A model generated the notes under the pieces. It was not told the origin of the DNA. It saw only the letters and a list, made by a program, of their open reading frames with translations, and searched no databases. From Owenweeksia hongkongensis DSM 17368 (GTDB lineage: Bacteria; Bacteroidota; Bacteroidia; Flavobacteriales; Schleiferiaceae): DNA of 64,000 nucleotides. Where the stretch lies: contig NC_016599.1 of the NCBI RefSeq assembly GCF_000236705.1, positions 1,922,001 to 1,986,000 of the forward strand. Reading direction: 5' to 3'. The position numbers and the translations under genes are program-made. Below are positions 6,020 through 62,489 of the stretch, piece after piece; the stretch's first letter is position 1; every line of letters begins with the position of its first letter.

Positions 6020-6054
6020 ATTATTTAAGGTCTGCCAAACAAACGCGTTTTTCG

Positions 6055-6062
6055 CAAAAGTA
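6055..6062 (-). promoter_or_regulatory. Putative porU -7 box
   Basis: TACTTTTG on the minus strand, 35 bases upstream of the porU ATG, matches TAnnTTTG and predicts a leader of about 28 bases. It lies in the divergent region between porU and the PorP/SprF-like gene. Confidence 0.5.
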
Positions 6063-6231
6063 TTATTAAGAATAAAGTAACCCTACAATAAGAATGATTA
6101 AACGCAATTTTAACTTGTTGTAAGCGGTATTTGATAAAAAATACCATATTTGTAATTATAATAGGACAGCCCATAATTGTGGCATTTAGTCTAATTATTT
6201 GTATCATTGTCATTTGAAACTCCTAGTAAGG

Positions 6232-7215: not shown

Positions 7216-7220
7216 TTTTG
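7213..7220 (+). promoter_or_regulatory. Putative gldJ -7 box
   Basis: TAGTTTTG overlaps the stop codon of the PorP/SprF-like gene and lies 32 bases before the gldJ ATG. It matches TAnnTTTG, so gldJ may have its own promoter besides read-through. Confidence 0.4.
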
Positions 7221-7252
7221 AAAACTACTCGATAACGATTTTATAAAGAGTT

Positions 7253-8839: not shown

Positions 8840-8846
8840 AAATTTC

Positions 8847-8871
8847 AGCCCCGTTTTTACGGGGCTTTTTT
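8847..8871 (+). terminator. Terminator after gldJ, abutting the murF start codon
   Basis: A GC stem (8848-8853 AGCCCCG-type half with 8860-8865) closes a 6-base loop and is followed by six T at 8866-8871. The murF ATG begins at 8872, so the T tract touches the start codon. Confidence 0.85.
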
Positions 8872-10146: not shown

Positions 10147-10152
10147 AACGAA

Positions 10153-10178
10153 AAAGCCCTGCATTTCTGCAGGGCTTT
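10153..10178. terminator. Bidirectional terminator between murF and acyl-CoA dehydrogenase
   Basis: A perfect 11-bp stem (10153-10163 with 10168-10178) with loop TTTC has A-rich and T-rich flanks on opposite sides, serving both convergent genes. Confidence 0.88.
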
Positions 10179-10199
10179 GTTTTATCCATTTCTGAGGAA

Positions 10200-11342: not shown

Positions 11343-11501
11343 CTGTCTATAATTATATTAATCAATGATGGTTAATTGCAATAATCCCAATAATTTCGCC
11401 TAAGCTAAAATTAACAGCGGGTGTTTATTGTGTTCATTCTCACTAAAACCTGATTTACTCGATTTTAGAAGGAGTGCAAATGTAATGTTTACACCTTAAA
11501 A

Positions 11502-12572
11502 ATGGTAACAAAACCAATGAAGGCTATAGGATTAATGAGTGGCACGTCACTAGATGGGCTAGATATTTGCCTCTGTGACTTTACTGAGAAAGACGGCATT
11601 TGGGCATTTTCTATATTAAAAGCCGAAACCATACCCTATAATCCGCAGTGGCAAGAACGACTAACCTATAATGGTAGCCTTTCGGCAAATGAACTCCTGG
11701 CTCTTGATCATGACTACGGCATTTTATTAGGCAATATGCTTCAGGGCTTTCTTCAAAAAAATAATATTGACGCAAAGTCTTTGAGCTTAATTTCCAGCCA
11801 CGGGCACACGTATTATCATCGCCCTGAGCAAGGCTTTACCTTTCAGCTAGGTAATGGCCCTGAGCTTTTTTCCAAATTTCAGATTCCGGTGGTATGTGAC
11901 TTCAGAAGACAAGATGTGGCCATGGGCGGTCAAGGCGCTCCATTGGTGCCTATTGGCGATCAATTGCTTTTTCATAAAAATGCAGCCTGTTTGAATTTCG
12001 GTGGCTTTGCCAATATTTCTTTTGCTGAAAACGAAAGCCGAACAGCTTTTGATATTTGCCCGGTAAATTTTGTGCTAAACGATTTAGCCAAAGAATTGGG
12101 CTATGATTACGACTATCAAGGATTACTGGCTTCTAAAGGAAAGGTGGATATGGAGTTGCTCAAAAAACTAAATGATCTCCCTTTTTATAAAATGAAACAC
12201 CCCAAATCTCTCGGTGCAGAGTGGGTGAATGAAAATGTGTTTCCGCTAATTGAAAATTCAGGTTTGGGGATTTTTGAAAAACTCCGAACAATGACTGAGC
12301 ATGTGGCTATTCAGGTAACTGATATCCTAAACCGCTATCAGATTAAAAACTGTATGATAACTGGAGGCGGTGCTTACAATGCTCACCTTATCCAATTAAT
12401 AAGGAGTAAAACCAATTGCCTGATTCACATTCCTGAAAAGGAAATAGTAGAATATAAAGAAGCCGTGATTTTTGCCTTTATGGGCGTACTACGCTGGCAG
12501 AAAAAAAATAATGTGATTGGCACCGTTACGGGCGCTCCTCACTCACATAGCTCAGGAATTATCTACTCCTAA
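11502..12572 (+). CDS. anmK: Anhydro-N-acetylmuramic acid kinase
   Basis: AnmK phosphorylates and opens 1,6-anhydro-MurNAc released from cell-wall turnover, giving MurNAc-6-phosphate for recycling. The 356-residue product shows the ATP-binding GLMSGTSLDGLD at residues 10-21, SSHGHTYYHRPEQGFTFQLG, VCDFRRQDVAMGGQGAPLVP and the C-terminal ITGGGAYNAHLI. An in-frame ATG five codons later (11517) is an equally good start. It lies upstream of the amino-acid dehydrogenase in the same direction, but that gene has its own -7 box. Confidence 0.94.
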   Translation: MVTKPMKAIGLMSGTSLDGLDICLCDFTEKDGIWAFSILKAETIPYNPQWQERLTYNGSLSANELLALDHDYGILLGNMLQGFLQKNNIDAKSLSLISSHGHTYYHRPEQGFTFQLGNGPELFSKFQIPVVCDFRRQDVAMGGQGAPLVPIGDQLLFHKNAACLNFGGFANISFAENESRTAFDICPVNFVLNDLAKELGYDYDYQGLLASKGKVDMELLKKLNDLPFYKMKHPKSLGAEWVNENVFPLIENSGLGIFEKLRTMTEHVAIQVTDILNRYQIKNCMITGGGAYNAHLIQLIRSKTNCLIHIPEKEIVEYKEAVIFAFMGVLRWQKKNNVIGTVTGAPHSHSSGIIYS

Positions 12573-12626
12573 TTGGGCTTGCATTAAATTACTGTAACCA
12601 AGACCCCTCCCACTTCAAGGTTTTAT

Positions 12627-12634
12627 TACATTTG
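12627..12634 (+). promoter_or_regulatory. Putative promoter -7 box of the amino-acid dehydrogenase
   Basis: TACATTTG matches TAnnTTTG and lies 20 bases before the ATG at 12654, predicting a very short leader. Confidence 0.5.
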
Positions 12635-12653
12635 CGCGCAATAAAATTATACC

Positions 12654-13880
12654 ATGAAGGATTTACTAAAGATATACGAAAGCAAGGCGCCAGAAATCGT
12701 TTTTCACTGGCATGATAGTGAAACCATCGCTGAAGGATGGGTAGTAATAAATTCATTGAGAGGCGGTGCTGCCGGTGGCGGTACTCGTATGCGTGAAGGT
12801 CTTAATGAGCATGAAGTGCTTTCATTGGCCAAAACCATGGAAATTAAATTTACAGTTGCAGGCCCTGCAATTGGTGGTGCAAAATCAGGTATCAACTTCA
12901 ACCCAAATGACCCTCGTAAGGATGGTGTTTTGGAAAGATGGTATAAAGCTGTAAAGCCTCTACTTAAAACATATTACGGCACAGGTGGTGACTTGAACGT
13001 GGATGAAATTCACGAAGTAATTCCTGTAACCAGAGAGCTTGGAATAGAGCATCCTCAAGAAGGTGTTTTGGTGGGTCACTTTGCTCCAAATGACGCTGAC
13101 AAAGCCAAAAAAATAAAGCAACTTCAGGAAGGAGTTTTATATCCTGTAACCAAGGAAAACCTTACTCCTAAGCCAGAAAAAAATTATACGGTAGCCGATA
13201 TGATTACCGGTTACGGAACTGCTGAATCGGTTCGTCACTTTTATAATATTTATGGTGGTGACCTTGCCGGAAAGCGTGTGATTATTCAAGGTTGGGGAAA
13301 TGTAGCCGCTGCTGCTGCCTTTTACCTTGCTCAAAATGGCGCCAAAGTAGTTGGAATCATTGACCGTGTTGGTGGTCTTATCAACGAAAACGGTTTTTCT
13401 TATCAAGAAATCACAGATTTGTTCAATGCCAAAAATGGCAACTTCTTAGTAGCTGATAATTTGATTCCTTTTGACGAAATCAACGAACGCATTTGGACAG
13501 TAGGTGCGGAAATCTTTATCCCTGCTGCTGCTTCACGTTTGGTAAGCAAAGACCACTTGGACAAAATGATTGACAACGGTCTTGAAGTAATTTCTTCAGG
13601 TGCCAATGTACCATTTGCTGACAATGAAATTTTCTACGGTCCTATTTCAGAATATGCTGACCAGAAAGTAACCTGCATCCCTGACTTTATCTCTAACTGC
13701 GGTATGGCCCGTGTATTTGGCTACCTAATGGGAGATGATGTAACTCTTAGCGATGAAGCAATCTTTGACGATAGCTCAGATACTATTAAGGATGCCCTTC
13801 AAAAATGTTTTGACAAAAGCTCTGACAAGAAGTTTTTGACCAAAACAGCTTATGAAATTGCTTTAAAACAACTTATCTAA
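12654..13880 (+). CDS. Glu/Leu/Phe/Val dehydrogenase family protein
   Basis: The enzyme oxidatively deaminates an amino acid to its 2-oxo acid with NAD(P). The 408-residue product has the N-terminal ELFV dimerisation/catalytic domain (RGGAAGGGTRMREG, then GPAIGGAKSGI with the catalytic Lys) and the C-terminal Rossmann domain (VIIQGWGNVAAAAAFYLAQNGAKVVGI). It is about 40 residues longer than Bacillus leucine dehydrogenase because of a charged insertion at about residues 140-180, a form I associate with Bacteroidota. Whether leucine, valine or glutamate is the substrate cannot be decided here. The next gene, nhaD, starts 24 bases downstream. Confidence 0.88.
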   Translation: MKDLLKIYESKAPEIVFHWHDSETIAEGWVVINSLRGGAAGGGTRMREGLNEHEVLSLAKTMEIKFTVAGPAIGGAKSGINFNPNDPRKDGVLERWYKAVKPLLKTYYGTGGDLNVDEIHEVIPVTRELGIEHPQEGVLVGHFAPNDADKAKKIKQLQEGVLYPVTKENLTPKPEKNYTVADMITGYGTAESVRHFYNIYGGDLAGKRVIIQGWGNVAAAAAFYLAQNGAKVVGIIDRVGGLINENGFSYQEITDLFNAKNGNFLVADNLIPFDEINERIWTVGAEIFIPAAASRLVSKDHLDKMIDNGLEVISSGANVPFADNEIFYGPISEYADQKVTCIPDFISNCGMARVFGYLMGDDVTLSDEAIFDDSSDTIKDALQKCFDKSSDKKFLTKTAYEIALKQLI

Positions 13881-13904
13881 TTTAACTTTTCAATCCTCGG
13901 CCCC

Positions 13905-15329
13905 ATGTATATTTTAATGGTAGTAATTTTTGTGCTCGGTTATGCAGCTATTGCAATGGAGCATACTATTCGTATTGATAAAGCTGCATCTGCACTTATA
14001 ACAGGTGTTCTTTGCTGGACCGTATATGTACTTGGGGCCCAGGGTATCGTTGACTTTGACAGTATACCAGCGTATATTTCAGAAATATTCTTCCATAACC
14101 CCGGTCATAGTGGGGCTCCTACTATTGCTGAGCAATCGGAGATTATTACCCATTATGTTACCGAATTTCAAATTTTAGAGCATCTGGGTGAAATAGCTTC
14201 CATCCTGTTTTTCCTTTTGGGCGCTATGACCATAGTGGAGCTTATTGACAGCCACGAAGGTTTTGCTGTAATTACAGATCGTATTCGCACCACAAACAAG
14301 CGCAAGCTAATGTGGATCGTGGGTATTCTTACTTTCTTCTTTTCTGCCGCATTGGATAACCTTACAACTTCTATTGTAATGATTTCGCTATTGCGAAAAC
14401 TGATAGAAGACAAAGAGGACCGTTGGCTTTTTGCCGGTTTGGTAATTATTGCAGCCAACGCTGGTGGTGCCTGGTCTCCTATTGGAGACGTTACCACAAC
14501 CATGCTTTGGATTGGCTCTCAGGTTACCGCAGGCGCCATTATCATTAAGCTTATACTACCAAGCTTGGTGTGTTTGGCTATTCCGCTTTTAGTGGTTTCT
14601 ATGCGTACCAAAGGAAATGTAAAGCGCCCCATGAAATCTGAAGGACTGGAACACTATACCAATCCTACCACCCCAAAGGAGCGTAACATTGTGTTTGGAG
14701 CTGGTGTAGCCGGATTGCTATTTGTGCCTGTATTTAAAACCTACACACACCTCCCTCCTTTTATGGGAATGATGCTGAGCTTAGGTGTACTTTGGGTAAT
14801 CACCGAAGTGCTTCACCGCAGTAAAAACAAAGAGGCAAAGTATAACCTTAGCGTAATTGGTGTACTTCAAAAAGTAGATACCGCCAGTGTACTTTTCTTC
14901 TTAGGAATCCTTTTGGCAGTAGCTAGTTTGCAATCTGCGGGCCAACTACAAACTATGGCTGGATTTCTTGATGAAAGCATAGGTACATCTAACGAAAGTG
15001 GAATTTACATCATCAGTATGGTAATTGGTTTATTATCTGCCATTGTGGATAACGTGCCTTTGGTGGCCGCTGCAATCGGTATGTATGACATCAATCCTGA
15101 GGTAGGTCACTTCTTTTCACAAGATGGTTTGTTCTGGGAATTTTTGGCTTACTGTGCTGGTACCGGAGGTAGCGCATTAATCATCGGTTCTGCGGCTGGT
15201 GTAGCTGTAATGGGCCTTGAGGGCATTCCATTTGGATGGTATCTTAAACGTATTTCATTACTTGCCATCATAGGTTATTTTGCAGGAGCGTTTGCCTACA
15301 TCATTCAGGAAAGCATATTTCATCTGTAA
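13905..15329 (+). CDS. nhaD: Na+/H+ antiporter NhaD
   Basis: NhaD is an inner-membrane sodium/proton antiporter of the ion-transporter superfamily, common in marine and halophilic bacteria. The 474-residue product is almost wholly hydrophobic, with about 12 predicted segments. It carries the family core FFFSAALDNLTTSIVMISLL and, in the second half, SAIVDNVPLVAAAIGMY, the two pseudo-repeated Asp-Asn motifs. NAGGAWSPIGDVTTTMLW between them is also diagnostic. The start ATG at 13905 begins directly with a membrane segment. It could be co-transcribed with the dehydrogenase 24 bases upstream; exbB after it has its own promoter box. Confidence 0.92.
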   Translation: MYILMVVIFVLGYAAIAMEHTIRIDKAASALITGVLCWTVYVLGAQGIVDFDSIPAYISEIFFHNPGHSGAPTIAEQSEIITHYVTEFQILEHLGEIASILFFLLGAMTIVELIDSHEGFAVITDRIRTTNKRKLMWIVGILTFFFSAALDNLTTSIVMISLLRKLIEDKEDRWLFAGLVIIAANAGGAWSPIGDVTTTMLWIGSQVTAGAIIIKLILPSLVCLAIPLLVVSMRTKGNVKRPMKSEGLEHYTNPTTPKERNIVFGAGVAGLLFVPVFKTYTHLPPFMGMMLSLGVLWVITEVLHRSKNKEAKYNLSVIGVLQKVDTASVLFFLGILLAVASLQSAGQLQTMAGFLDESIGTSNESGIYIISMVIGLLSAIVDNVPLVAAAIGMYDINPEVGHFFSQDGLFWEFLAYCAGTGGSALIIGSAAGVAVMGLEGIPFGWYLKRISLLAIIGYFAGAFAYIIQESIFHL

Positions 15330-15385
15330 ACTATCGATTGTTAATTTTTCTTTCGGCAACTATAATCTAGGCTTGTGTAGTCCGT

Positions 15386-15393
15386 TATCTTTG
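15386..15393 (+). promoter_or_regulatory. Putative promoter -7 box of the exbB-exbD-tonB-folC operon
   Basis: TATCTTTG matches TAnnTTTG and lies 22 bases upstream of the exbB ATG. No clear -33 TTG was found at the expected distance. Confidence 0.5.
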
Positions 15394-15415
15394 GAGGTAA
15401 ATAATAGCACCTTCA

Positions 15416-16120
15416 ATGTACACACCTTTTTTACAGATATCAGTGCCTGACACGGCCACTGCTGCTGGAGATGAACTTCCGGTAGAGAAAACATTAAGCA
15501 TTTGGGAACTGATAACCAGCGGAGGACCTGGCGGTATACTCATTATGAGTGTGCTTTTTATCCTTTCCATAATTGCTGTTTACATCTTTATTGAGCGATT
15601 TAATTCCATTAAAAAAGCCAATAAAATAGATGTCAATTTCATTAACAACATCAAAGACCACGTAAGTCAAGGGCGCTTAGATGCGGCTAAGGCTTTATGC
15701 CAAAGTCAGGACACTCCCGTGGCGCGTATGATTCAAAAAGGTATTTCCCGTATCGGAAAACCTTTGAAGGATATTACCTCAGCTATTGAAAACACTGGCA
15801 AGCTTGAAATCAGCCGTCTTGAAAAAAACCTGGCTGCCTTAGCTACCATTGCCGGTGCCGCTCCAATGATTGGTTTCTTGGGTACCGTTATCGGGATGAT
15901 TTTAGCCTTTCACGAAATGGCTGCTGCTGGTGGTCAGATTGACATCGAAATGCTTGCCGAAGGTATCTATACCGCAATGACTACAACTGTAGCCGGACTT
16001 GCAGTGGGCATTGTTGCCTATATCGGTTACAACGTATTGGTAGCTCGTGTAGACAAGGTGGTTTATAATATGGAAGCCAATACTGTAGAGTTTTTGGATC
16101 TATTACACGAACCTGCTTAA
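15416..16120 (+). CDS. exbB: ExbB/TolQ/MotA family proton-channel protein
   Basis: ExbB is the inner-membrane channel subunit that uses the proton gradient to drive TonB. The 234-residue product has three membrane segments: about residues 40-62 (ILIMSVLFILSIIAVYIFIE), 140-165 (AAPMIGFLGTVIGMILAF) and 175-205 (MTTTVAGLAVGIVAYIGYNV). The cytoplasmic loop between the first two carries the GAPMIGFLGTVIGM-type motif typical of ExbB/TolQ. It begins a tight operon, with exbD starting 2 bases after its stop, then tonB and folC. The context with a TonB protein favours ExbB over TolQ or GldL-like roles. Confidence 0.93.
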   Translation: MYTPFLQISVPDTATAAGDELPVEKTLSIWELITSGGPGGILIMSVLFILSIIAVYIFIERFNSIKKANKIDVNFINNIKDHVSQGRLDAAKALCQSQDTPVARMIQKGISRIGKPLKDITSAIENTGKLEISRLEKNLAALATIAGAAPMIGFLGTVIGMILAFHEMAAAGGQIDIEMLAEGIYTAMTTTVAGLAVGIVAYIGYNVLVARVDKVVYNMEANTVEFLDLLHEPA

Positions 16121-16121
16121 G

Positions 16122-16514
16122 ATGAATTTAAAACGTAGAAATAGAGTTAGCGCAGAATTCAGCATGTCCAGTATGACGGACATTGTGTTTCTGTTGCTAA
16201 TATTCTTTATGATCGCCTCCACCTTGGTTACAAGTTCTGCTTTGGATTTGCAGCTACCTAGCAGCAAAGTACAAACTGTAAAACGCCAGGATGTAACGGT
16301 AAATATTTCACCTGATTTACGCATTTCTGTAGGAAAAGATATAGTGAGCGAAGCAGAGCTGGAGAGTGCTATTTTAGCTAAAGCCAATAATGACCCGGAG
16401 GCCGTGGTAATGCTTAGAGCCGACAAATCTGTACCTTATGAAAAAGTGGTAATGGTGATGGACATAGCTTATCGCAATAAGCTAAAAATGATTGCCGCCA
16501 CAAACCCCAAGTAG
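16122..16514 (+). CDS. exbD: ExbD/TolR family biopolymer transport protein
   Basis: ExbD partners ExbB in the proton-driven motor of the TonB system. The 130-residue product has a short cytoplasmic start (MNLKRRNRVSAEFSMSSMTD) with the motor Asp next to one transmembrane helix (residues 20-40, IVFLLLIFFMIASTLVTSSA) and a periplasmic ExbD domain (VNISPDLRISVGKDIVSEAEL, VMLRADKSVPYEKVVMVMD). Length is normal. It lies between exbB and tonB with one-base gaps, so the three are surely one transcript. Confidence 0.93.
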   Translation: MNLKRRNRVSAEFSMSSMTDIVFLLLIFFMIASTLVTSSALDLQLPSSKVQTVKRQDVTVNISPDLRISVGKDIVSEAELESAILAKANNDPEAVVMLRADKSVPYEKVVMVMDIAYRNKLKMIAATNPK

Positions 16515-16515
16515 T

Positions 16516-17334
16516 ATGTTTAAAGAAATTTGGAACGATAAAGACCGAAGGAAAGGGCTGATTGGCTCCATAACTTTCCATGCCATATTGTTGCTATTGT
16601 TCCTTTTTGTGGGATTGAAGTACTACGAACCAAAGCCCGAGGATGGTATCGTTATCAACTTTGGGAACTCTGAAACCGGGATGGGCGATCAAGCGGATGG
16701 CGCACAGCAAACCGTAGTGGAAACTACGCCAGAAGAAACCACTCCTGAACCTGTGGAATCTCCAAGTGATGCTGTAGAGCCCACTCAAACACAAGATGTG
16801 GTGGATGCTCCTGCCGTTGAAACTAAAAAAGCTGAAAAGCCCAAAAAGGTAGAAGAACCAAAACCTGTAGAACCAGAAAAGCCAAAGCCTAGTAGCGAAC
16901 TGGAAAAAATGCTGGAAAGCGTAAAGAGCTCTAAGGCGGGTGGCGAAGGAGAAAAGAAAGGTGAAGGCGACCAAGGCGCTGCTGATGGTGACCCCAACAG
17001 CAAAAGCAGAACTGGAGGAAGCACTGGAGGTGGCGGAACTGGAGGGACAGGAAACTATATGCTGGGAGGCCGACAAGCCCTAAATAAACCAAAGCCTGAG
17101 TACCCTTGTACCGAAGAAGGTCGTGTGGTAGTGAAGATTTACGTGGATCAAAACGGTAAAGTTACCAACGCCATACCTGGCGAAAGAGTACCTGGCGGAT
17201 CAGCTACCACCACTACAAGTAGCTGCTTGTTTGACAAAGCTAAAGCTGCAGCTATGCGCACTACCTGGCAGCCAGATGGCGATGCACCAAATCCACAAAT
17301 AGGTTACATCGTTTACAACTTCCAAAAGCGATAA
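16516..17334 (+). CDS. tonB: TonB family energy-transducing protein
   Basis: TonB spans the periplasm and passes ExbBD energy to TonB-dependent outer-membrane receptors. The 272-residue product has one N-terminal membrane anchor (residues 14-34), a long Glu/Pro/Lys-rich periplasmic spacer (about 60-155), a Gly-rich linker (about 165-190) and a C-terminal TonB-type domain with YPCTEEGRVVVKIYVDQNGKV. The ATG at 16516 starts one base after the exbD stop. The unusual Cys in the C-domain (YPC, SSC) may form a disulfide. folC follows after 3 bases. Confidence 0.9.
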   Translation: MFKEIWNDKDRRKGLIGSITFHAILLLLFLFVGLKYYEPKPEDGIVINFGNSETGMGDQADGAQQTVVETTPEETTPEPVESPSDAVEPTQTQDVVDAPAVETKKAEKPKKVEEPKPVEPEKPKPSSELEKMLESVKSSKAGGEGEKKGEGDQGAADGDPNSKSRTGGSTGGGGTGGTGNYMLGGRQALNKPKPEYPCTEEGRVVVKIYVDQNGKVTNAIPGERVPGGSATTTTSSCLFDKAKAAAMRTTWQPDGDAPNPQIGYIVYNFQKR

Positions 17335-17337
17335 ATC

Positions 17338-18558
17338 ATGACGTATCAGGAGTGGCTCGATTGGCTCTTCACGCAGCTGCCCATGTACCAACGCGTTGGT
17401 GGAGCAGCTTATAAAGCTGACCTCAGCAATACCCACAAACTGATGCATTTGCTGGATCATCCAGAAAATAAGTTCAAAAGTGTGCATGTGGCGGGTACCA
17501 ATGGCAAGGGTTCTACTTCGCACATGCTTGCTGCTATATTTCAAAAAGCAGGTTACAAAACAGGCCTTTATACCTCTCCTCACTTAAAGGATTTTAGAGA
17601 ACGTATTCGCATTAATGGCGAAATGATCCCCGAAAAGGATGTAGTAAGCTTTGTAGCAAATCACAAAACCAAATTTGAAAGTGTTGGTCTTTCCTTTTTT
17701 GAAATGACCGTGGGCATGGCGTTCCAATATTTTGCTGATAAAAAAGTAGACATTGCCATAGTAGAAGTAGGCATGGGTGGTCGCCTTGATAGCACCAATG
17801 TAGTTTCTCCTGAACTCAGTATTATCACCAACATCAGTTTAGATCACACCCAGTTTTTGGGAAATAACTTGGCAAGCATAGCCGGTGAAAAAGGAGGAAT
17901 CATAAAGGAAAACACTCCAGTGGTAATTGGAGAACACCACCCTGAAACCGACCCTGTTTTCACCAAATTAGCTGGGGCTAAAAATGCTCCACTCTCTTTT
18001 GCGGAAGATATTATTCCGATGCGTGAATTGGATGAACTGGACTTAAAGGGCATTTACCAAAAGAAAAATATTCGCACCGTTTTGGCAGCGGTTCAGCAGC
18101 TGGAAGAGAAAGGATATCTACTTGAGAACACTCTAAAAGAAGCTTTGCTCAATGCAAGCAAACTTACCGGCCTCCGCGGACGATGGGAAACATTAAGCAC
18201 CAGCCCTCGCATAATTTGTGATACGGGCCATAATGAAGCTGGCGTAAAACTTATCATGGAGCAACTCGCCAAAGAGCCATTTGAGAACCTACACATCGTT
18301 TGGGGAATGGTTGGAGATAAAGACATTACTAGCGTTCTCAAATTATTGCCAAAAGACGCAACTTACTATTGGTGCAAACCAAGTATCCCTCGTGGCAAAA
18401 ATGCTGAAGAACTAAAACAAGATTCTTTGGTCATTGGACTAAAAGGCGAAGTTTATAATTCCCCAAGCTCCGCTTTGGGAGCTAGTAAAAATGCAGCTTC
18501 AGCTAATGATTTAATCTTTGTGGGCGGAAGCACCTTTGTGGTTGCCGATGTTCTTTAG
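17338..18558 (+). CDS. folC: Bifunctional folylpolyglutamate synthase/dihydrofolate synthase
   Basis: FolC ligates glutamate to dihydropteroate and then to folates, in the cytoplasm, using ATP. The 406-residue product has the P-loop VAGTNGKGS at residues 51-59, the FolC block TSPHLKDFRERIRING, the omega-loop region EVGMGGRLDSTN and TNISLDHTQFLG. The C-terminal Mur-ligase-like domain has RGRWETL and CDTGHNEAG. It ends the exbB-exbD-tonB-folC operon, an odd functional mix. Its stop codon overlaps that of the convergent secreted-protein gene by 4 bases (TTAG shared). Confidence 0.94.
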   Translation: MTYQEWLDWLFTQLPMYQRVGGAAYKADLSNTHKLMHLLDHPENKFKSVHVAGTNGKGSTSHMLAAIFQKAGYKTGLYTSPHLKDFRERIRINGEMIPEKDVVSFVANHKTKFESVGLSFFEMTVGMAFQYFADKKVDIAIVEVGMGGRLDSTNVVSPELSIITNISLDHTQFLGNNLASIAGEKGGIIKENTPVVIGEHHPETDPVFTKLAGAKNAPLSFAEDIIPMRELDELDLKGIYQKKNIRTVLAAVQQLEEKGYLLENTLKEALLNASKLTGLRGRWETLSTSPRIICDTGHNEAGVKLIMEQLAKEPFENLHIVWGMVGDKDITSVLKLLPKDATYYWCKPSIPRGKNAEELKQDSLVIGLKGEVYNSPSSALGASKNAASANDLIFVGGSTFVVADVL

Positions 18559-20060
18559 AGTTTCTGTACCAAGCGCGTTTGCTGCAAACCATCGGACTTC
18601 ACTTCCAGCAAGTACATACCTTTTGAAAGTTTAGAAATATCAATCTCCGTTTTATACGATTGAGGAATTACGGATTTCAGCTCCCGGCCTTGAATATCAA
18701 AAAGGGTGATTAGCTCTGGAGTTTCTCCCTCTTCAAGCTCTACGGTAATTTTATCCTTGGTGGGATTTGGATAAACTGAGAAGGTATTTGAATTTAAAGT
18801 TTCAAGTAGTCCTGTAAATTGACAATCTCCCGCAATAAGAACCCCGTTATCTGAATCCGGGAATTCAATTCCGCAATAGTTTATCAGGGTATTTCCGTCT
18901 GTTCCCTTTTTCAATGTGATTAGAAGTGTGTCATTAGCCATAACAGGTCTATGCAACTTTACCCAGATAGAGTCGAATGTTAGGTCTGGTTTAATGTTGT
19001 AGAAACCAGCTTCAATTACTGGATATGGTATTGAATCATTACCAACAACCCTGAATTCTGAACCACTTTGTGTTAGTGAGCTAGTAGAAAAGTTATTTAG
19101 TCTCAATGAGATAACAGAGTCATTACAGAATATTTTTTTGATGGTATCAATAGTATTTACACCTCCAAAGGCTGTGCTCACCATTCCCATAGGTGCTGCG
19201 GACTCTACATAGTAGGTTACCTCCCGCATTGCGGATCCGACCTGAAACCATCCCCAAGCCGGATCTAGTCTATACTCAACAGCTTCCACTACCACTGAAT
19301 ATATTCCTGCTTGTGTAAAAATCATTCCAGAGCCAAACAGTGACTGCGATGGCAAGGGTTGGCCAGAACTAAAACCGTTTGCATAAGTTGCGTTAACTCC
19401 ATTGGAATCCTTAGCTGAAACCAGCCGGAACCAAACCGAATCATTATTTGGATCCACCGCATACATTCCCGTATTCCATACTGGGGAGTTCATGTAAAAT
19501 TTAAACCTTGGATAACTATAAAACTGTGGAGATGTGTTAGGTCCAAAGGTTGTATTAAGCTTTGCATCAAGGTAAAAAGCTGTATTTTCTGAATTCACTA
19601 AATTGTCAATTAAACTGTCCCTACAGCACTGTTGGTAAGAAAACACATAGTCAGTACACCCTCCAGGAAGTGCTACAGTATCTCTGTAATAAAATGCCAA
19701 AAGAGGGATACTGTCGGATGTTAAGCTATCTCCACAGTTTACACCGGAAGCAAACCACACCCCACTCGACACGGTATGAAAACTTCCAGGAATGAAAGGT
19801 TTCATTGATAATGTATCGTTGCCAAAACAAGAAGATGTGAGGATTACCTCTACTGGTTGATTTGCCAAATTAGCACTGGCAGTTTGGTATAAAACCAAAG
19901 TGACCTCATAATCAGCAATGCCATTAACATATTTGTAACTAATCTCTCCACCCATCGGCCCTCCAGCTAGGGCTAATTGGTATGAAAACACAAATAAAAT
20001 TATGGTCAGAAGGGATTGAAAATTGCGAGTCACCATCGGTTTAGTTTTTGAATTGAGCAT
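18555..20060 (-). CDS. Secreted protein with type A type IX sorting domain
   Basis: This 501-residue protein of unknown function is probably exported by the type IX system and surface-attached or released. It has an N-terminal signal peptide (ending YQLALA) and begins with GGPMGGEISYKYVNGIADYEVTLVLYQ. That opening resembles the N-terminal domain of large Bacteroidota gliding-associated and PKD-containing surface proteins. The C-terminal 80 residues are a type A sorting domain (FSVYPNPTKDKITVEL, LFDIQGRELKS, LSKGMYLLEV, TRLVQKL). A later ATG (20036) would give a shorter signal peptide and is equally possible. It is a single-gene unit with a palindrome just upstream (20097-20124). Confidence 0.82.
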   Translation of the reverse strand: MLNSKTKPMVTRNFQSLLTIILFVFSYQLALAGGPMGGEISYKYVNGIADYEVTLVLYQTASANLANQPVEVILTSSCFGNDTLSMKPFIPGSFHTVSSGVWFASGVNCGDSLTSDSIPLLAFYYRDTVALPGGCTDYVFSYQQCCRDSLIDNLVNSENTAFYLDAKLNTTFGPNTSPQFYSYPRFKFYMNSPVWNTGMYAVDPNNDSVWFRLVSAKDSNGVNATYANGFSSGQPLPSQSLFGSGMIFTQAGIYSVVVEAVEYRLDPAWGWFQVGSAMREVTYYVESAAPMGMVSTAFGGVNTIDTIKKIFCNDSVISLRLNNFSTSSLTQSGSEFRVVGNDSIPYPVIEAGFYNIKPDLTFDSIWVKLHRPVMANDTLLITLKKGTDGNTLINYCGIEFPDSDNGVLIAGDCQFTGLLETLNSNTFSVYPNPTKDKITVELEEGETPELITLFDIQGRELKSVIPQSYKTEIDISKLSKGMYLLEVKSDGLQQTRLVQKL

Positions 20061-31748: not shown

Positions 31749-31801
31749 CATCGATTACAATATTACATTAAAATATGTCGTGTAAAAGAGTGCATTTCTT
31801 T

Positions 31802-31862
31802 AACCATTAAGGAATGAAGAAACATGAAGCAAGTCTTAATAAACCTTAACTTCTTAATGGTT
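31802..31862. repeat. Intergenic element copy A (7-bp-periodic, inverted ends)
   Basis: AACCATTAAG at 31802-31811 and its exact complement at 31853-31862 bound a 61-base element that reads with an irregular 7-base period. Both halves recur, in swapped order, at 56272-56330: the right half agrees in 19 of 20 positions and the left half in 24 of 28. Confidence 0.7.
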
Positions 31863-55455: not shown

Positions 55456-56091
55456 ATGACTAAGAAGGAAAAAGTGCAATTTGTAATTGATAAGCTCGAA
55501 GAACTTTATCCGGAGGTTCCGATTCCTTTAGATCATTCCGACCCATATACTTTGCTAATTGCCGTTTTGCTATCGGCACAATGCACAGATGCCCGGGTAA
55601 ACAAAATCACCCCACTCCTATTTCAGGTGGCAAGCACACCTTACGAAATGGCCAAACTTACTCAAGAAGAAATTGCCGCCATCATTCGTCCTTGTGGGCT
55701 TACGCCAATGAAATCAAATGGCATTAAGCAACTCTCCCATATTTTGATTGACAAATACAATGGAGAAGTACCAGCTGATTTTGAAGCTTTGGAAAGCCTC
55801 CCTGCCGTGGGGCACAAAACTGCCTCGGTAGTAATGAGTCAGGCTTTTGATATTCCTGCATTCCCTGTAGACACCCATATTCATCGCTTAATGAACCGCT
55901 GGGGGCTAAGTAATGGGAAGTCGGTGGTACAAACGGAAAAGGACGCCAAACGACTTTTTCCAAAAGAGCTTTGGAACAAACTTCATTTGCAAATCATTTA
56001 TTACGCCCGTGAATATTCTCCCGCTCGCGGCTGGGATATTAATAAAGATGTGATTTCTCAAAAAATCGCAAGAAAGAGTTTGTTGAAATAG
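55456..56091 (+). CDS. nth: Endonuclease III lacking the iron-sulfur cluster loop
   Basis: Endonuclease III is a base-excision-repair glycosylase/AP lyase for oxidised pyrimidines. The 211-residue product has the helix-hairpin-helix LPAVGHKTASVV with catalytic Lys121 and the catalytic Asp139 in FPVDTHIHRL. The C-terminal [4Fe-4S] loop is missing its cysteines: the region reads YSPARGWDINKDVISQ and the protein has only Cys43 and Cys80. I recall the same Ser-for-Cys wording in Flavobacteriia homologues, so this is likely a lineage trait rather than damage. It is followed by a repeat-rich gap. Confidence 0.93.
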   Translation: MTKKEKVQFVIDKLEELYPEVPIPLDHSDPYTLLIAVLLSAQCTDARVNKITPLLFQVASTPYEMAKLTQEEIAAIIRPCGLTPMKSNGIKQLSHILIDKYNGEVPADFEALESLPAVGHKTASVVMSQAFDIPAFPVDTHIHRLMNRWGLSNGKSVVQTEKDAKRLFPKELWNKLHLQIIYYAREYSPARGWDINKDVISQKIARKSLLK

Positions 56092-56133
56092 TTTGGAGTA
56101 GGGAGTCTGGAATTTGGAGTAAGGAGTTGGCAA
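56092..56133 (+). repeat. Degenerate heptamer repeat
   Basis: Six consecutive 7-base units (TTTGGAG, TAGGGAG, TCTGGAA, TTTGGAG, TAAGGAG, TTGGCAA) begin right after the nth stop codon. They share a GGA/GAG core at fixed phase. Confidence 0.7.
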
Positions 56134-56271: not shown

Positions 56272-56330
56272 ACCTTAACTCCTTAATGGTTTTCATTTTT
56301 TTAACCATTAAGCCATCAAGAATCATGAAG
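56272..56330. repeat. Intergenic element copy B (inverted ends, halves swapped relative to copy A)
   Basis: The right half of the 31.8-kb element occurs at 56272-56291 and its left half at 56303-56330. Their facing ends CTTAATGGTT (56282-56291) and AACCATTAAG (56303-56312) form a perfect 10-bp hairpin. It lies just upstream of the 3' end of the propeller-barrel gene. Confidence 0.7.
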
Positions 56331-56337
56331 AGTGGTT

Positions 56338-59300
56338 TTAAAAATCATACCCCAAACTGAAGGCAAACTCACTGTCCAGAATAATACCATCCTCAACAGG
56401 CCATGCCCAATCAAAGCGCAGGTAGTAGCCAAATAGCCTCGTGCGAAGACCAACTCCGTAGCTATAAATGATAGGGTCTTTTTGACTGTCAATTATTATT
56501 TGACCACTCCCTCCCGTGGGGCCGTAAGGAATAGTACTGGTATTAATAGCGTTCTCCTTACTGTAAGGGGATGGCCCATTCCAGGCCGTACCCACATCCC
56601 CAAAGCCAATCACCTGAAGGTTTTTAATAAAATCACTCTTAATTGGTTTTTGAAATAGGTAGCTAAAAATTGGCCATCTCAATTCACTATTGAACACCGC
56701 AAAACTGTTTCCGTTTCTTGAGTTCTGGTAAAAACCTCGCATGTTAGTTACCAAGGTTTGAAATATGTAATTATTGTCCTGAGCAATTGGAGTTGTAGGT
56801 TCAAATTTGGGCACAAACATATTATCCACACCTCCCATTATGTAAATCAACTTTTCCGGCCCAAAGGAAGTTCCCGCTGCAAAGCGATTGGCCCAAATCA
56901 AGTTTTTATGGATGATAGTATAATTTCTTAAATCAATACCCGCAGTATGCAATCCTGTTGGGCTTTTATAAAGATTTCGATAGTACTCTGTAAAAATCTT
57001 GTACCTCAATCCTGAATATAAGTTTGGTCCAATCTTACGTGTGTTATCATAAACATAGGCCAGCCTTGCAATGGCATAATCTTGATATTTGGTCGGCTTG
57101 TCCAATGAGCTATCATCACGGCTCAAACTGATTATCTCATCCATTCTGTACCCCAAGCTTCCGCGTAATGAAGACACTGGATTAAAAGGATATGACAACT
57201 TATAAGTAGCCTCATTGGAAATAGTACGTTCGTAATCTGTTTCTGTAAACAGCTGCACCTTGCTCCTGCGGGCAAAAACATAATCCTTATCAAATCGGTT
57301 TTTATAATCACTAAGCGCCACCATTATCTCCGAGTTTGGAATAATTGAGGTTCCATTCAATGGCTGGAAACTAGTGCTCAGCATTGCTGAAATAGTATAA
57401 TCATGCATCAAATCCTGCACCCCACCACCCAAGGTCATGTTAAACCCTGAATTGAGATAATCACCCGAAACAAACCCTGTGAAAGGCTGGTATTGTGGGT
57501 TGTCATAAATATTGTCAAACCCTACAGTAAAGTCCTTTTGAAAGAATGACAAAAAGTAATTTCTCTGTGGCGGAATATCGAGCGGCTCCTCCTCTTTAGG
57601 CTCCTGCTCCATAGCAATCGGAGCGGGTAATATGTCCACCTCTTTTGGCTTCAATCGAGACCTTGGAGCCGGCCTGTCCTTTTTCTCATCTACATTATCA
57701 AATTTGTAGTCATTAATGTCCACTTCAAACTTTGTAGGGTCAACACCCGGGTAATACAGAGGCATACTTTCACTTTCTTGAATAGCCGCTCTGTCCGGAC
57801 GTTCCGTTTCTTTTGGGTTCGCCACTGGAATTACTGGTGTAGACTTGGAAGTCACAAAATTCAAATCTTCTGGTGAACGATATGGTGTACTATAAATCCT
57901 GTAGCGCTTATCCACCAAAGCCATTTCCAGCACCTCATCCCGCTCCTGCATTACCTCATGGGCCAAAATGCTACGGTTATAATCTGAGAGTTTGTACTCG
58001 CTAAATTCATAAGCATAATGCGTGGTGGTATCCACCGAAGCAATGCTGCTATCAATTTTAAGTAGATGCCGCGAAGCCACTCCCCGTGCTCCTTGACTAA
58101 GTATTGACACATATCCATCAGCGTAAGATTTTGGATATATCTCATTAGTGAAGGGAGAATTGGTAAGTTGCCAAATCACAGAAGTATCTTTAGGCTCACG
58201 GGCAGGCATAGCGTAGATATCCATCTTGCGCTTAGGAAACTCCGTAGCCTTCTCTTTCAGTTTTACTGAATCCGTTGGACGGTTAGAACTAAATGCAATT
58301 CGTGAGTCTTTTTCAATCCAGGTTGGATACAGATCGGCATAAGTATCATTGGTAAGCTGCTCTACTTTGGTATTGAGGATGGTGTAAATAAATATATCGG
58401 ACTGGCCATCTTTTACTGCTGAAAGCACAAATCGCTTTCCGTCAGCAGAGTATTCAAACGAAAGAATTTTATCAAACTTGAAGAATTTTTGCTTCTGCCA
58501 TTTCTTCTTTTCCAATTCATAATAATGGAGATACACAAAACCCTGCTCTTCGGTAATCATGGCTAATATTTCACCATTGGGGTGCCACGCCAGCAAGGGA
58601 TAAGAGTAGTCCGAATTTTGAGCAATGCGATAACCTTCTGTAAGCAGTCGCTTCTTTTTGTCCTTTTCAAAATCATATAAAAACACTTTGTAGCGGGAAA
58701 ACCGCTGGCTTGTGTAGGCCAAATATCGCCCATCATTACTTGTAGACATATGTGTAACGATGTGGTGCTTTTTCACTTTAAGAAGTTCTTCTTCCGCAAA
58801 ATTCTCCACCCCGGTTTTGGGTTCATATTGCTCTTTAAGATAATTCTGCCAGCCCCTTAAAACCTCATCCAGGTCTTTACCCAAAATGTACAGGAAGCCA
58901 CTTTCTATGTTGCGATTTACCACAGCCATGTACACCACATTTTTCAGCACTTTTTGACCATAAGTATCCGCCAAATAATTCCAAATGGAATGCCCGGCAT
59001 ATCGCGCCTGCTCTCCATAAACGGAGTTTATACTTTTATACTGGCCAGACAAATAACCATCGCGCACATACTTATCCACGTTGGGATTATCCGGATTTCC
59101 AATGTAAGAGATAAGCCCCTCAGTGTACCATTCTGGCAGGTTTAGCAAAGTGGAATTTTTAATTGACTGTGTGAAACTTCCATAAATAAGATTGCTTAGT
59201 ACAACTTCAGAAAGCCCTGAACGTAGCTCGCCTTCGAGCTTTACATAGTCACCATCAAAATGTAGAAAAAGGCGTCTCCCACTGATTCGGGTAACACCTG

Positions 59301-59667
59301 TAGTATTATAGTCTTCCTCGCTACTTGAATTTACATTACTCTGCTTGAGGTCGGATAGGTTATTGAAAACCAAAATCTGCACACGGTCATCCAAGGGAGC
59401 ATCCAGCAAGGCTTCTATGCGTGGAAGCTGCTTATCTGCCATTCGAGCTACTTGCGCGGCCAGATCTTTGTTTCCTCTATAAAAATAAACGTCAAAGCGC
59501 TCAAAGCGATAAAACACCCAATCAAACTCGGTATACTGAACCCTATTTTTACCAAAAGTCTGGCGGGTTCCATAGAAAAACTGACCCTGCACCTCGTTTG
59601 CCAACAAGATGAAAAGCAAGCCAAAAAGAGCTATGCGTACGTGAGAGTAAGTTTTTGCCACTGGCAT
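56338..59667 (-). CDS. TolB-like propeller protein with pseudo-peptidase N-domain and C-terminal outer-membrane barrel
   Basis: This 1,109-residue envelope protein has a signal peptide (ANEVQGQ). An N-terminal domain (about 35-290) is built like gluzincin peptidases (peptidase MA type). It keeps the late LPEWYTEGLISYI motif but replaces the metal-binding HExxH by a segment around GLSEVVLSNL, so it is probably inactive. A TolB/PD40 propeller follows (about 300-560, repeats like LAWHPNGEILAMITEE, YSADGKRFVLSAV, RIAFSSNRPTDS), then a charged proline-rich linker (about 620-720). The C-terminal beta-barrel (about 735-1109) ends in Phe. Bacteroidota homologues are often annotated TolB-like; the role is unknown. 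Confidence 0.78.
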   Translation of the reverse strand: MPVAKTYSHVRIALFGLLFILLANEVQGQFFYGTRQTFGKNRVQYTEFDWVFYRFERFDVYFYRGNKDLAAQVARMADKQLPRIEALLDAPLDDRVQILVFNNLSDLKQSNVNSSSEEDYNTTGVTRISGRRLFLHFDGDYVKLEGELRSGLSEVVLSNLIYGSFTQSIKNSTLLNLPEWYTEGLISYIGNPDNPNVDKYVRDGYLSGQYKSINSVYGEQARYAGHSIWNYLADTYGQKVLKNVVYMAVVNRNIESGFLYILGKDLDEVLRGWQNYLKEQYEPKTGVENFAEEELLKVKKHHIVTHMSTSNDGRYLAYTSQRFSRYKVFLYDFEKDKKKRLLTEGYRIAQNSDYSYPLLAWHPNGEILAMITEEQGFVYLHYYELEKKKWQKQKFFKFDKILSFEYSADGKRFVLSAVKDGQSDIFIYTILNTKVEQLTNDTYADLYPTWIEKDSRIAFSSNRPTDSVKLKEKATEFPKRKMDIYAMPAREPKDTSVIWQLTNSPFTNEIYPKSYADGYVSILSQGARGVASRHLLKIDSSIASVDTTTHYAYEFSEYKLSDYNRSILAHEVMQERDEVLEMALVDKRYRIYSTPYRSPEDLNFVTSKSTPVIPVANPKETERPDRAAIQESESMPLYYPGVDPTKFEVDINDYKFDNVDEKKDRPAPRSRLKPKEVDILPAPIAMEQEPKEEEPLDIPPQRNYFLSFFQKDFTVGFDNIYDNPQYQPFTGFVSGDYLNSGFNMTLGGGVQDLMHDYTISAMLSTSFQPLNGTSIIPNSEIMVALSDYKNRFDKDYVFARRSKVQLFTETDYERTISNEATYKLSYPFNPVSSLRGSLGYRMDEIISLSRDDSSLDKPTKYQDYAIARLAYVYDNTRKIGPNLYSGLRYKIFTEYYRNLYKSPTGLHTAGIDLRNYTIIHKNLIWANRFAAGTSFGPEKLIYIMGGVDNMFVPKFEPTTPIAQDNNYIFQTLVTNMRGFYQNSRNGNSFAVFNSELRWPIFSYLFQKPIKSDFIKNLQVIGFGDVGTAWNGPSPYSKENAINTSTIPYGPTGGSGQIIIDSQKDPIIYSYGVGLRTRLFGYYLRFDWAWPVEDGIILDSEFAFSLGYDF

Positions 59668-59786
59668 TGAAATTCTTAAAGGAAATAGTAATCTATTAAT
59701 AAACTGTGAAGCTTAGGGTTTAGTGTAAAGACAAATAAAGCTTCTCACGAATATACCATAAATAGGGAAATGCAAACCTTAGAAAA

Positions 59787-59856
59787 GCTCCGAGCTTCAA
59801 GTTGCAAGCTAATAGCTTACGGCTTGAGACTTGAAGCTTGCGGTTTACAGCTCTCT
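59787..59856 (+). repeat. Ten-unit degenerate heptamer repeat
   Basis: Ten 7-base units in exact phase (consensus GCTTnnn; for example GCTTCAA, GCTTACG, GCTTGAG, ACTTGAA, GCTTGCG) fill the gap and end one base before the kmo stop codon. Confidence 0.75.
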
Positions 59857-59857
59857 C

Positions 59858-61207
59858 TCAATACTTCCCCAGCAATTCCAAAATCTTCGTCTCTACTTTT
59901 GGATCTTCCCAATTTTGATGAATATCCGGCATTGCCATCACCTCTTCCATAATTCTATCCTGGCGCTGACCTTCTTTCAAAGCATCAGAATAGCGAATAT
60001 CACTAAAAGTAACCATTGAATAAAGTGGTATCCACTTTCCCGGATTGTTTCGACTAAACTTGGCTTCTATCTTTTTGCGAAGAAGAAAATCCGCATTACC
60101 GGTAAGGTCGCGCATCTCCACAAAGTTGCGCATCGCCAAATCAGCAATAGCGTCTGCATCAGGCTTACGTTGAGTTTCAAATTCCTTCAGAATAGTATTC
60201 CAATCATCGCCATGCTGACTCATAATTTCTTCTAAAACAGTACAGTCTTCAAAACCACTGTTCATACCTTGTCCGTAAAAAGGAACGATGGCGTGAGAAG
60301 CATCGCCCAGTAAAGCCACCTTTCCATTTTTTGACCATGGGAAGCAGCGAATAATCACCAATGAAGACACAGGATTGTTTTCCCATTCTTCATCAAAATT
60401 CGTCATTAGCTCCAAAGCATCAGCAAAATGTTCCTTGAAAAAGGCGCGAGCTTTCTCCAAAGTATTAACTGTTTCAAAGGAGGTTTCGCCTTCGTTGGCA
60501 AAAAACAAAGTACAAGTAAAACTGCCATCAGGGTTGGGAAGAGCAATGAGCATATAGCTGCCGCGCGGCCAGATATGCAGCGCTTCCTTCTCCATTTTAT
60601 GCGTACCATCGGCATTTGCAGGAATACTCAATTCCTTGTAACCATGCTCGATATACTGTTGCGAATAGTTGAATCTATCGGTTTTCACCATAGAAGAGCG
60701 AACAGCACTAAAAGCGCCATCCGTTCCAAAAAGCAAGTCGCCCTCTACTTTGGTAATTTCTTTGGTACTGTATGATTTAAAACTTGCCTCAGCAGTTTCT
60801 AAATTCACTCGCGTGCATTGCTGGTCAAAATCGATGGAAACATTGCTGTGTTTTTCAGCTTCATCCATCAGCAAAGCATTAAGCCCACCACGAGAAACAG
60901 AATAAATAGCCTCGCCATTAAGCCCGTACGGTTGGTTGGTAAGTTCCCCTTCGCGGGAATGCATCACGCGGCCATACATCGGTATCGCCATCTTGCGAAC
61001 TTCATCCGCCACACCTACACCTTCCAAAGCTTTCCAGCCTCGGTTGCTTAGCGCCAAATTTATAGACCTACCACCATCAATGGTGGTTTTGCGCATATCT
61101 GGGCGTCTTTCGTACACCTTTACATCGTGACCTTTTTTGGCCATATAACAGGCCAAAAGTGAGCCCACCAATCCTGCTCCGGCTATCGTTACTTTTTTGT
61201 TTTCCAT
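59858..61207 (-). CDS. kmo: Kynurenine 3-monooxygenase
   Basis: KMO is an FAD enzyme that hydroxylates L-kynurenine with NADPH and oxygen in tryptophan degradation. The 449-residue product begins MENKKVTIAGAGLVGSLLACYMAKKGHDVKVYERR (dinucleotide-binding motif) and carries GGRSINLALSNRGWKAL, DLLFGTDGAFSAVRSSM and LLGDASHAIVPFYGQGMNSGFEDC, all typical of this family. The ATG at 61207 lies 1 base past the kynU stop, so coupled translation is likely. A slightly longer start would need a TTG inside kynU. The C-terminal membrane anchor of eukaryotic KMO is absent, as in other bacteria. Confidence 0.93.
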   Translation of the reverse strand: MENKKVTIAGAGLVGSLLACYMAKKGHDVKVYERRPDMRKTTIDGGRSINLALSNRGWKALEGVGVADEVRKMAIPMYGRVMHSREGELTNQPYGLNGEAIYSVSRGGLNALLMDEAEKHSNVSIDFDQQCTRVNLETAEASFKSYSTKEITKVEGDLLFGTDGAFSAVRSSMVKTDRFNYSQQYIEHGYKELSIPANADGTHKMEKEALHIWPRGSYMLIALPNPDGSFTCTLFFANEGETSFETVNTLEKARAFFKEHFADALELMTNFDEEWENNPVSSLVIIRCFPWSKNGKVALLGDASHAIVPFYGQGMNSGFEDCTVLEEIMSQHGDDWNTILKEFETQRKPDADAIADLAMRNFVEMRDLTGNADFLLRKKIEAKFSRNNPGKWIPLYSMVTFSDIRYSDALKEGQRQDRIMEEVMAMPDIHQNWEDPKVETKILELLGKY

Positions 61208-61208
61208 G

Positions 61209-62489
61209 CTATTTGGCAAATTTCTTTAGTCCTTGCTCAAAGATTTTCCCGAAGCGGAAAATGTCCTCAAAGTTGTTGTACATCGGCACCGGAGCCATGC
61301 GGATTACATCCGGCTCACGCCAATCCGAAATCACACCATTTTCCATCAAATAGTCAAACACCTTACGACCAACACCCGGCACTATCACCGATAGCTGAGC
61401 ACCTCTTCTTTCCGGATCTTTTGGGGTAATAATTTTCAATTCTACGCCTGTGCTTTCACGAACCTGCTCTACCACAAACTGCAGATAAGCCGTCAGCTTT
61501 TTAGACTTTTCGCGCAAGCGTTGCATACCCGCCTGCTCAAAAAGCTCTAGGCTCGCCAAAAGTGGAACCATGGCAAAAACAGGAGCATTGCTCAGCTGCC
61601 AAGCTTCAGCCGTTGGGATAGGCTTAAAGGTTTCCGGCATTTTAAAACGCGTCTCCTTATCATGTCCCCACCAGCCTTCAAAGCGTGGTATTTCGGTTTG
61701 GCCGTGATGTTTTTCGTGAACAAATATTCCGCTCACCCCACCAGGACCACTATTCAAATATTTGTATCCGCACCAAGCGGCAAAGTCAACATCCCAGTCG
61801 TGAAGTTTGATGGGCATATTTCCCGCAGCGTGGGCCAAATCCCAGCCTACTACCGCGCCAATTTCCTTTCCCTTACGGGTGATGCGCTCCATGTCAAAAA
61901 ACTGACCGGTGTAATAATTCATACCACCCAGCATCACCAAAGCAATTTCATCAGCATGCTTTTCCAAGGTTTCAATCACGCGATCATCTGTGATTAATTC
62001 AGCTACAGGATCCGGTTGAATTTCGATAAGATCATCTTCCGTAAGGCCATGAAAACGCAACTGGCTGCGAAGTGCATATTGATCTGATGGAAAAGCCTTG
62101 CCTTCGCAAACTATTTTTTTCCTTTTCCCTTCCGGGCGAAAAAAGCTCACCATCAATAAGTGCAAGTTTGTGGTAAGGCCATTCATAGCAACTACTTCGC
62201 TAGGTTTCGCACCAACGATGCTCGCCAAAGGTTTTGTGAAAAATTCGTGATACTTCAGCCATGGTCTGCGGCTTTCGGTGTGTCCTTCTACTCCAAATGT
62301 CGCCCAGTCATCCAGCTCTTCACTGATATACTCGCGTGCATTTTTGGCTTGTAAGCCAAGAGAGTTTCCGGTAAAATATATGGCGTTTTCGCCCTTGTGC
62401 TGTGGAAATAAAAATTGAGCTCTGAAATTTTTCAATTCATCCTCCGCATCACATTTGAGCGCAAACTCTGCATTAAACTGATATTCCAT
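61209..62489 (-). CDS. kynU: Kynureninase
   Basis: Kynureninase is a PLP enzyme that cleaves kynurenine or 3-hydroxykynurenine to anthranilate or 3-hydroxyanthranilate plus alanine. The 426-residue product has FTGNSLGLQ near the start, VVGWDLAHAAGNMP and the PLP lysine at residue 243 in AWCGYKYLNSGPGG, then GWWGHDKETRFKMP. Next to kmo, the likely substrate is 3-hydroxykynurenine. The operon order is kynU-kmo, and the first (kynA) and later genes of the pathway are not in this window. Confidence 0.94.
   Translation of the reverse strand: MEYQFNAEFALKCDAEDELKNFRAQFLFPQHKGENAIYFTGNSLGLQAKNAREYISEELDDWATFGVEGHTESRRPWLKYHEFFTKPLASIVGAKPSEVVAMNGLTTNLHLLMVSFFRPEGKRKKIVCEGKAFPSDQYALRSQLRFHGLTEDDLIEIQPDPVAELITDDRVIETLEKHADEIALVMLGGMNYYTGQFFDMERITRKGKEIGAVVGWDLAHAAGNMPIKLHDWDVDFAAWCGYKYLNSGPGGVSGIFVHEKHHGQTEIPRFEGWWGHDKETRFKMPETFKPIPTAEAWQLSNAPVFAMVPLLASLELFEQAGMQRLREKSKKLTAYLQFVVEQVRESTGVELKIITPKDPERRGAQLSVIVPGVGRKVFDYLMENGVISDWREPDVIRMAPVPMYNNFEDIFRFGKIFEQGLKKFAK

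Follow-up and report, generated by a model that had tools for sequence, protein, structure and literature searches.

Heptamer repeats near gene ends and the array behind kmo

Heptamer repeats near the ends of bacterial genes are a known kind of element, and a number of bacteria carry more heptamer repeats than expected. In the available excerpts of PMC4692102, a heptamer excess in bacteria was reported together with a proposed link to the polymerase footprint, and the Xanthomonas and Nostoc heptamers GGGAATC and GGGGA(C/T)T were described as intergenic, many of them located 0-50 nt from stop codons or overlapping them. TAACTGA direct repeats have been described from Beggiatoaceae, Cyanobacteria and some Bacteroidetes (excerpts of PMC4679880), and dispersed elements of four or five tandem heptamers from Geobacter metallireducens (excerpts of PMC2700814). 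At the level of the phylum, 7-nt simple repeats are over-represented in Bacteroidetes (median class 0.75, compared to 0 in most phyla) in the accessible part of a survey that covered perfect repeats alone, with neither positions nor unit structure (PMC4060949). In our search of open-licence papers, we recognized none describing heptad arrays in Flavobacteriales that are degenerate or of the 4+3 type, and a structure of fixed tetramers with free triplets was not seen in the excerpts of these four papers.

The array studied here occupies positions 59787-59856 of the window, a 64,000-nt stretch of the genome of the marine bacterium Owenweeksia hongkongensis. It is assigned to the minus strand, as is kmo, and consists of ten units, which read GCTTnnn on the plus strand and nnnAAGC on the strand of the kmo mRNA. 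On the plus strand, the units are GCTCCGA, GCTTCAA, GTTGCAA, GCTAATA, GCTTACG, GCTTGAG, ACTTGAA, GCTTGCG, GTTTACA, and GCTCTCT, with GCTT matched at 33 of 40 tetramer letters. This is a real period-7 array: its best ten-unit score, 49.1, was never equalled when the 190-nt intergenic region was dinucleotide-shuffled 5000 times, and the remaining tested periods scored 10.7-21.0. Lag-7 identity at 59786 (39/63) was the highest for all lags from 2 to 30 in the whole window. The original prediction had placed ten heptamers here in phase, ending one base before the kmo stop codon, and both points hold, as there is no phase break and 59857 is the sole base before the complement of the stop TGA (59858-59860). 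Tandem Repeats Finder did not report the array, in our reading because its units are too dissimilar.

The gene that ends at the array (59858-61219, minus strand) encodes a kmo-like FAD monooxygenase (FAD_binding_3) and belongs to tryptophan breakdown. The name kmo, which came with the original prediction, is supported by the neighbouring kynureninase gene located upstream (61209-62489, minus strand; KYNU_C). The next gene downstream, encoding 1109 aa with a PD40 match (56338-59667), is on the same strand as kmo and starts 119 nt past the array; its leader occupies 59687-59772 (minus strand).

Compared to the described systems, the kmo array belongs to a known kind and is unusually degenerate. 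Being intergenic and 1 nt from a stop codon, it is placed as the Xanthomonas and Nostoc heptamers are, and the arrays of O. hongkongensis share with these, going by the excerpts of PMC4692102, the period, the intergenic and stop-proximal location, the occurrence in inverted pairs, and the variation in length and sequence between close relatives. However, the Xanthomonas and Nostoc heptamers follow a single G-rich, quadruplex-forming consensus, whereas several A+T-rich or mixed words are used here; no kmo unit contains a GGG or CCC run, and the triplets of the AGTA family described below are free. TAACTGA repeats are likewise intergenic heptamers whose strains differ by indels mostly in 7-nt steps, but they have a single near-exact unit, which is absent from the kmo unit list, and in Beggiatoaceae they are mostly found directly upstream of start codons (excerpts of PMC4679880). 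The Geobacter elements differ in their fixed consensus, and one of them, with 49 members, is also found within genes (excerpts of PMC2700814). The kmo unit list holds no three identical heptamers in tandem, the minimum for perfect heptamer SSRs of the 7n3 type.

The heptad word of the kmo array recurs in other bacteria. A search for four GCTTGnR units followed by GCTTG matched at least 119 bacterial genome stretches, of which the 80 listed and analysed came mostly from Pseudomonas, Halomonas, and Alcanivorax. These arrays also share with the kmo array the common presence of inverted arms; they differ in that their units are mostly perfect and their hosts mostly belong to other phyla. An exact GCTTGnn array was present in only 2/296 genomes of Owenweeksia's order. 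When the orientation of neighbouring genes was counted (mechanically called ORFs of at least 120 aa), 59 intergenic GCTTG arrays were located between convergent (16), divergent (5), or co-directional (38) genes, with 19 of the latter nearer the upstream gene; the 22 left out of this count were inside ORFs, at locus edges, in short loci, or had no neighbour. In other bacteria, GCTTG arrays show a weak 3' bias.

Period-7 arrays in the genome and their distance to gene ends

The kmo array belongs, as a degenerate member, to a genome-wide class in this Flavobacteriales lineage. Across 864 kb and 421 intergenic regions of O. hongkongensis, period 7 gave 14 peaks against 1 expected, with at most five at any other period. 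A second sample, 400 kb of new stretches, replicated the result (13 peaks against 1 expected, other periods at most five); together, the samples total 1.264 Mb of 4.000 Mb. In our reading, consensus words vary with the locus and include GCTTnnn, AGTnnGG, GATTnnn, TACTnnn, CTAAAnn, and TTAGAnn. Among relatives, G026 had eight period-7 peaks and seven in the replicate, and seven further genomes gave little or no signal. The signal of one more relative, G017, was rejected: it had ten peaks and none in the replicate, all listed arrays came from one 20-kb stretch (L101), and 12 new stretches gave none. Within L101, strong GAGATGT-type heptad arrays are crowded together at 3400-18740, while other sampled G017 stretches are without them.

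A second array in the window, AGTnnGG at 56090-56131 (plus strand), starts at the codon that terminates an endonuclease III-like (HhH-GPD) gene. It ranks next after the kmo array at lag 7 (36/63), none of 5000 shuffles was as good, and, as had been claimed, it has the period of the kmo array with a different consensus. The original prediction counted three period-7 sites beside gene 3' ends. Two are real and each abuts a stop codon, but the third, at 31.8 kb, failed the shuffle test (655/5000 shuffles as good), and thus the period-7 arrays are two of the three named sites.

By its sequence, the 31.8-kb element is an inverted repeat with arms TTAACCATTAAG / CTTAATGGTT, present at 31800-31862 of the window and again at about 56281-56312, and is not period-7. 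As a separate observation, the endonuclease III-like protein (55456-56091 of the window; L145) terminates at the stop codon that adjoins the array; the homologue in G003 continues for another eight or nine residues.

We measured the distance from strong arrays to ORFs of at least 100 aa, which were called mechanically, so that their 5' ends are uncertain. An ORF 3' end was located within 15 nt of seven of 11 strong arrays in the first sample (null 0.30, p = 0.023) and of six of seven in the new stretches (null 0.33, p = 0.007). Pooled, this was the case for 13/18 arrays (p = 0.0005 at a null of 0.315). The remaining five were elsewhere, meaning that the predicted tie to gene ends is found genome-wide as a preference and is not exclusive. 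Counts in relatives were 1/6 for G017 and 4/4, then 1/2, for G026.

A genome-wide search for GCTTnnn arrays had also been suggested. There is no such family here: four GCTTnnn units with up to two mismatches matched 16 genome places outside the kmo array, compared to 11 for the reversed control. The same count led us to reject a dispersed mobile repeat of the REP or MITE type.

Another candidate was that the stop codon itself seeds the array, leaving TAG in register with it. In the first sample, TAG was indeed found at +7, +14, or +21 in 14/112 genes with a TAG stop compared to 10/278 others (p = 0.0017), but the new stretches gave 2/59 versus 8/122 (p = 0.89). The signal was not replicated, the candidate was rejected, and we regard seeding by the stop codon as very improbable.

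Tetramers and triplets within arrays and between relatives

The main family of arrays in the genome is AGTAnnn, with 38 matches (four times, at most one mismatch) versus none for the reversed pattern. When exact tetramer-spacer arrays of four words were counted in the 1.264 Mb (both strands), the 4+3 arrangement gave 23 entries; between periods 4 and 11, the others gave 0 to 2 each, and period 12 gave eight. For 16 AGTA arrays, with one perfect array set aside, identity between adjacent units was 0.98, 0.89, 0.94, and 0.86 at the tetramer positions and 0.19, 0.48, and 0.19 at the triplet positions, where 0.28, 0.35, and 0.29 are expected at random. Only the triplet figures are unconditioned, as the arrays were picked by their tetramer; the deficits at two triplet positions are borderline (p of 0.07 and 0.05), and p is 0.03 for the excess at the middle position. 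A general 4+3 rule was rejected: in 22 mixed arrays, the top four columns were contiguous in nine versus 7.6 expected, and the rule was kept for the AGTA family only.

Across the order, the exact AGTAnnn pattern was detected in 60/196 genomes, often as perfect arrays and sometimes as mixed ones; the reversed control is no clean null on this scale, as the reversed word is common, chiefly in family f6. Two identical AGTAnnn arrays are present in both orientations in the O. hongkongensis genome (G000:C1 1352935-1353002 and 1917093-1917160; L339, L344, L357), apparently between the 23S rRNA and tRNA genes of two rRNA operons.

A kmo match was found in 35 of 40 genomes searched, own genome included, and the 3' flank of kmo was inspected in 30 loci, again including the own one. 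G002 and G008, which by our reading have the same downstream gene, had no such array in this flank. At L072 (G020), CACAGAG words are repeated after the kmo stop with a longer and less strict spacing. In the nearest relative, G001, whose Kmo is 96% identical, kmo and the array are separated by an additional 149-aa ORF that has no Pfam match (L144 1313-1762), and the array follows the stop codon of that ORF; the ORF is absent at the corresponding place in O. hongkongensis. The distal units in kmo sense are CTTGCAA, CTTGAAG, CTCGGAG, and CTTTTCT in O. hongkongensis and CTTGAGA, CTTGTAA, CTAGCAG, and CTTTCCC in G001. They differ at 1/16 tetramer and 7/12 triplet letters, next to a leader of the downstream gene that is identical at 86/86 aligned nt.

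Unit by unit, two of seven array pairs of the two genomes were identical and five differed; therefore, not every array evolves fast. Letters changed at 9/132 tetramer and 20/99 triplet positions of these pairs (p = 0.002), a contrast that is supporting only, as the tetramer phase was chosen from the arrays themselves. Array length differed from the nearest relative by 7 nt at L083 and L089 and by 14 nt at L090, although steps that are not multiples of seven were also seen (22 nt at L085, 2 and 6 nt at L011). The suggested comparison of unit number between strains thus yielded whole-unit steps at three loci; the kmo units of G001 are too diverged to count. Facing L090 8487, G001 (L161) has the palindrome CCCGATAGCTATCGGG in the place of a heptad array of O. 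hongkongensis.

A purely neutral minisatellite, in which slippage adds 7-nt copies, random mutation degrades them, and survival is limited to non-coding DNA, would account for the unit-step length changes and for the perfect AGTAnnn arrays of relatives. It would also be in line with the bacterial heptamer excess and the polymerase-footprint proposal, as far as the excerpts of PMC4692102 go. Slippage with even mutation predicts triplets as alike as tetramers, however, and adjacent AGTA units share the tetramer and not the triplets (0.19 at two positions). For the AGTA family, the neutral reading is strained by these identities. The preference of arrays for gene 3' ends also speaks against it, and we consider this reading rather unlikely overall.

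The reading that we prefer, and to which we give an even chance, is a slippage-born class of period 7 whose tetramers are retained, with a possible 3'-end hairpin at kmo. Arrays would lengthen and shorten by whole heptads, probably through replication strand slippage, and would persist where DNA can vary, which at kmo is the space between its stop codon and the leader of the downstream gene. The units do not decay evenly: the tetramer stays the same while the 3-nt spacer varies, most clearly in the AGTA family and less so elsewhere, the kmo array among them. Even mutation of slipped copies does not produce this pattern, which would call either for constraint acting on the tetramer or for mutation directed at the spacer.

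Another explanation is that the arrays are multivalent sites at which a DNA- or RNA-binding protein recognizes one tetramer per 7 nt, irrespective of orientation. The fixed tetramer, free spacer and fixed pitch are what such sites would look like, as are the inverted pairs of AGTA arrays, but tetramers differ between loci and the reader protein is still hypothetical, which makes this explanation unlikely in our judgement.

A predicted hairpin at the kmo 3' end

The kmo array is an inverted pair, with GCTTnnn matched by its left part on the minus strand and by its right part on the plus strand. A hairpin was predicted at 59785-59846 (minus strand), with arms at 59785-59810 and 59821-59846. The RNA fold of the plus strand has 24 base pairs and -31.0 kcal/mol (z -3.45, 0/200 shuffles as good); in kmo sense, it has -28.6 kcal/mol (z -2.41, 3/200 shuffles as good), with a z of -2.00 for a wider piece. 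A TTTTCT run follows near the predicted hairpin. Over the class, fold stability was not raised (6/14 arrays versus 21/60 controls, p = 0.42), and the hairpin was rejected as a general property of arrays.

These folds open another explanation, namely that the kmo array is an intrinsic-terminator-like or mRNA-stabilizing hairpin and that the heptads are a by-product of self-complementary AAGCTT-type units. Besides the two folds and the TTTTCT run, the rank of the first 80 nt after kmo, third most stable among the 30 post-kmo stretches, is consistent with it, as are the GCTTG arrays of other bacteria, where 23/81 were accompanied by an inverted arm no more than 150 nt away, against 0.17 expected. 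However, two terminator scans gave no match to a terminator-like site around the array, and the hairpin is not kept in G001, where the corresponding stretch folds weakly (-6.5 kcal/mol). The absence of raised stability over the class is a further point against it. We hold this explanation to be possible, at about one chance in three.

Under the preferred reading of a slippage-born class, the kmo array would have become an inverted pair able to form a hairpin directly after the stop codon. Terminator-like hairpins follow kmo in four of the 30 loci (that of O. hongkongensis is not one of them), and because some relatives have such hairpins there, the likeliest local use of the array, if any, would be a hairpin at the transcript 3' end. 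A 3'-end role of the predicted kmo hairpin is plausible.

More broadly, spaced-tetramer arrays of Bacteroidota, with four fixed and three free letters at a strict pitch of seven, located at gene ends and in rRNA spacers, could be functional platforms and not decayed satellites. They might either be recognized at every seventh nucleotide by a protein yet to be named or arise from replication or repair in which four nt are copied and three untemplated ones added; we put this forward as an unlikely reading. The AGTAnnn family provides a handle: with a tetramer that is fixed and triplets that are free, slippage can be told apart from constraint, and both can be tested by comparing close strains. 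Should a protein read the pitch of seven, it would represent a new type of signal at gene ends of Bacteroidota.
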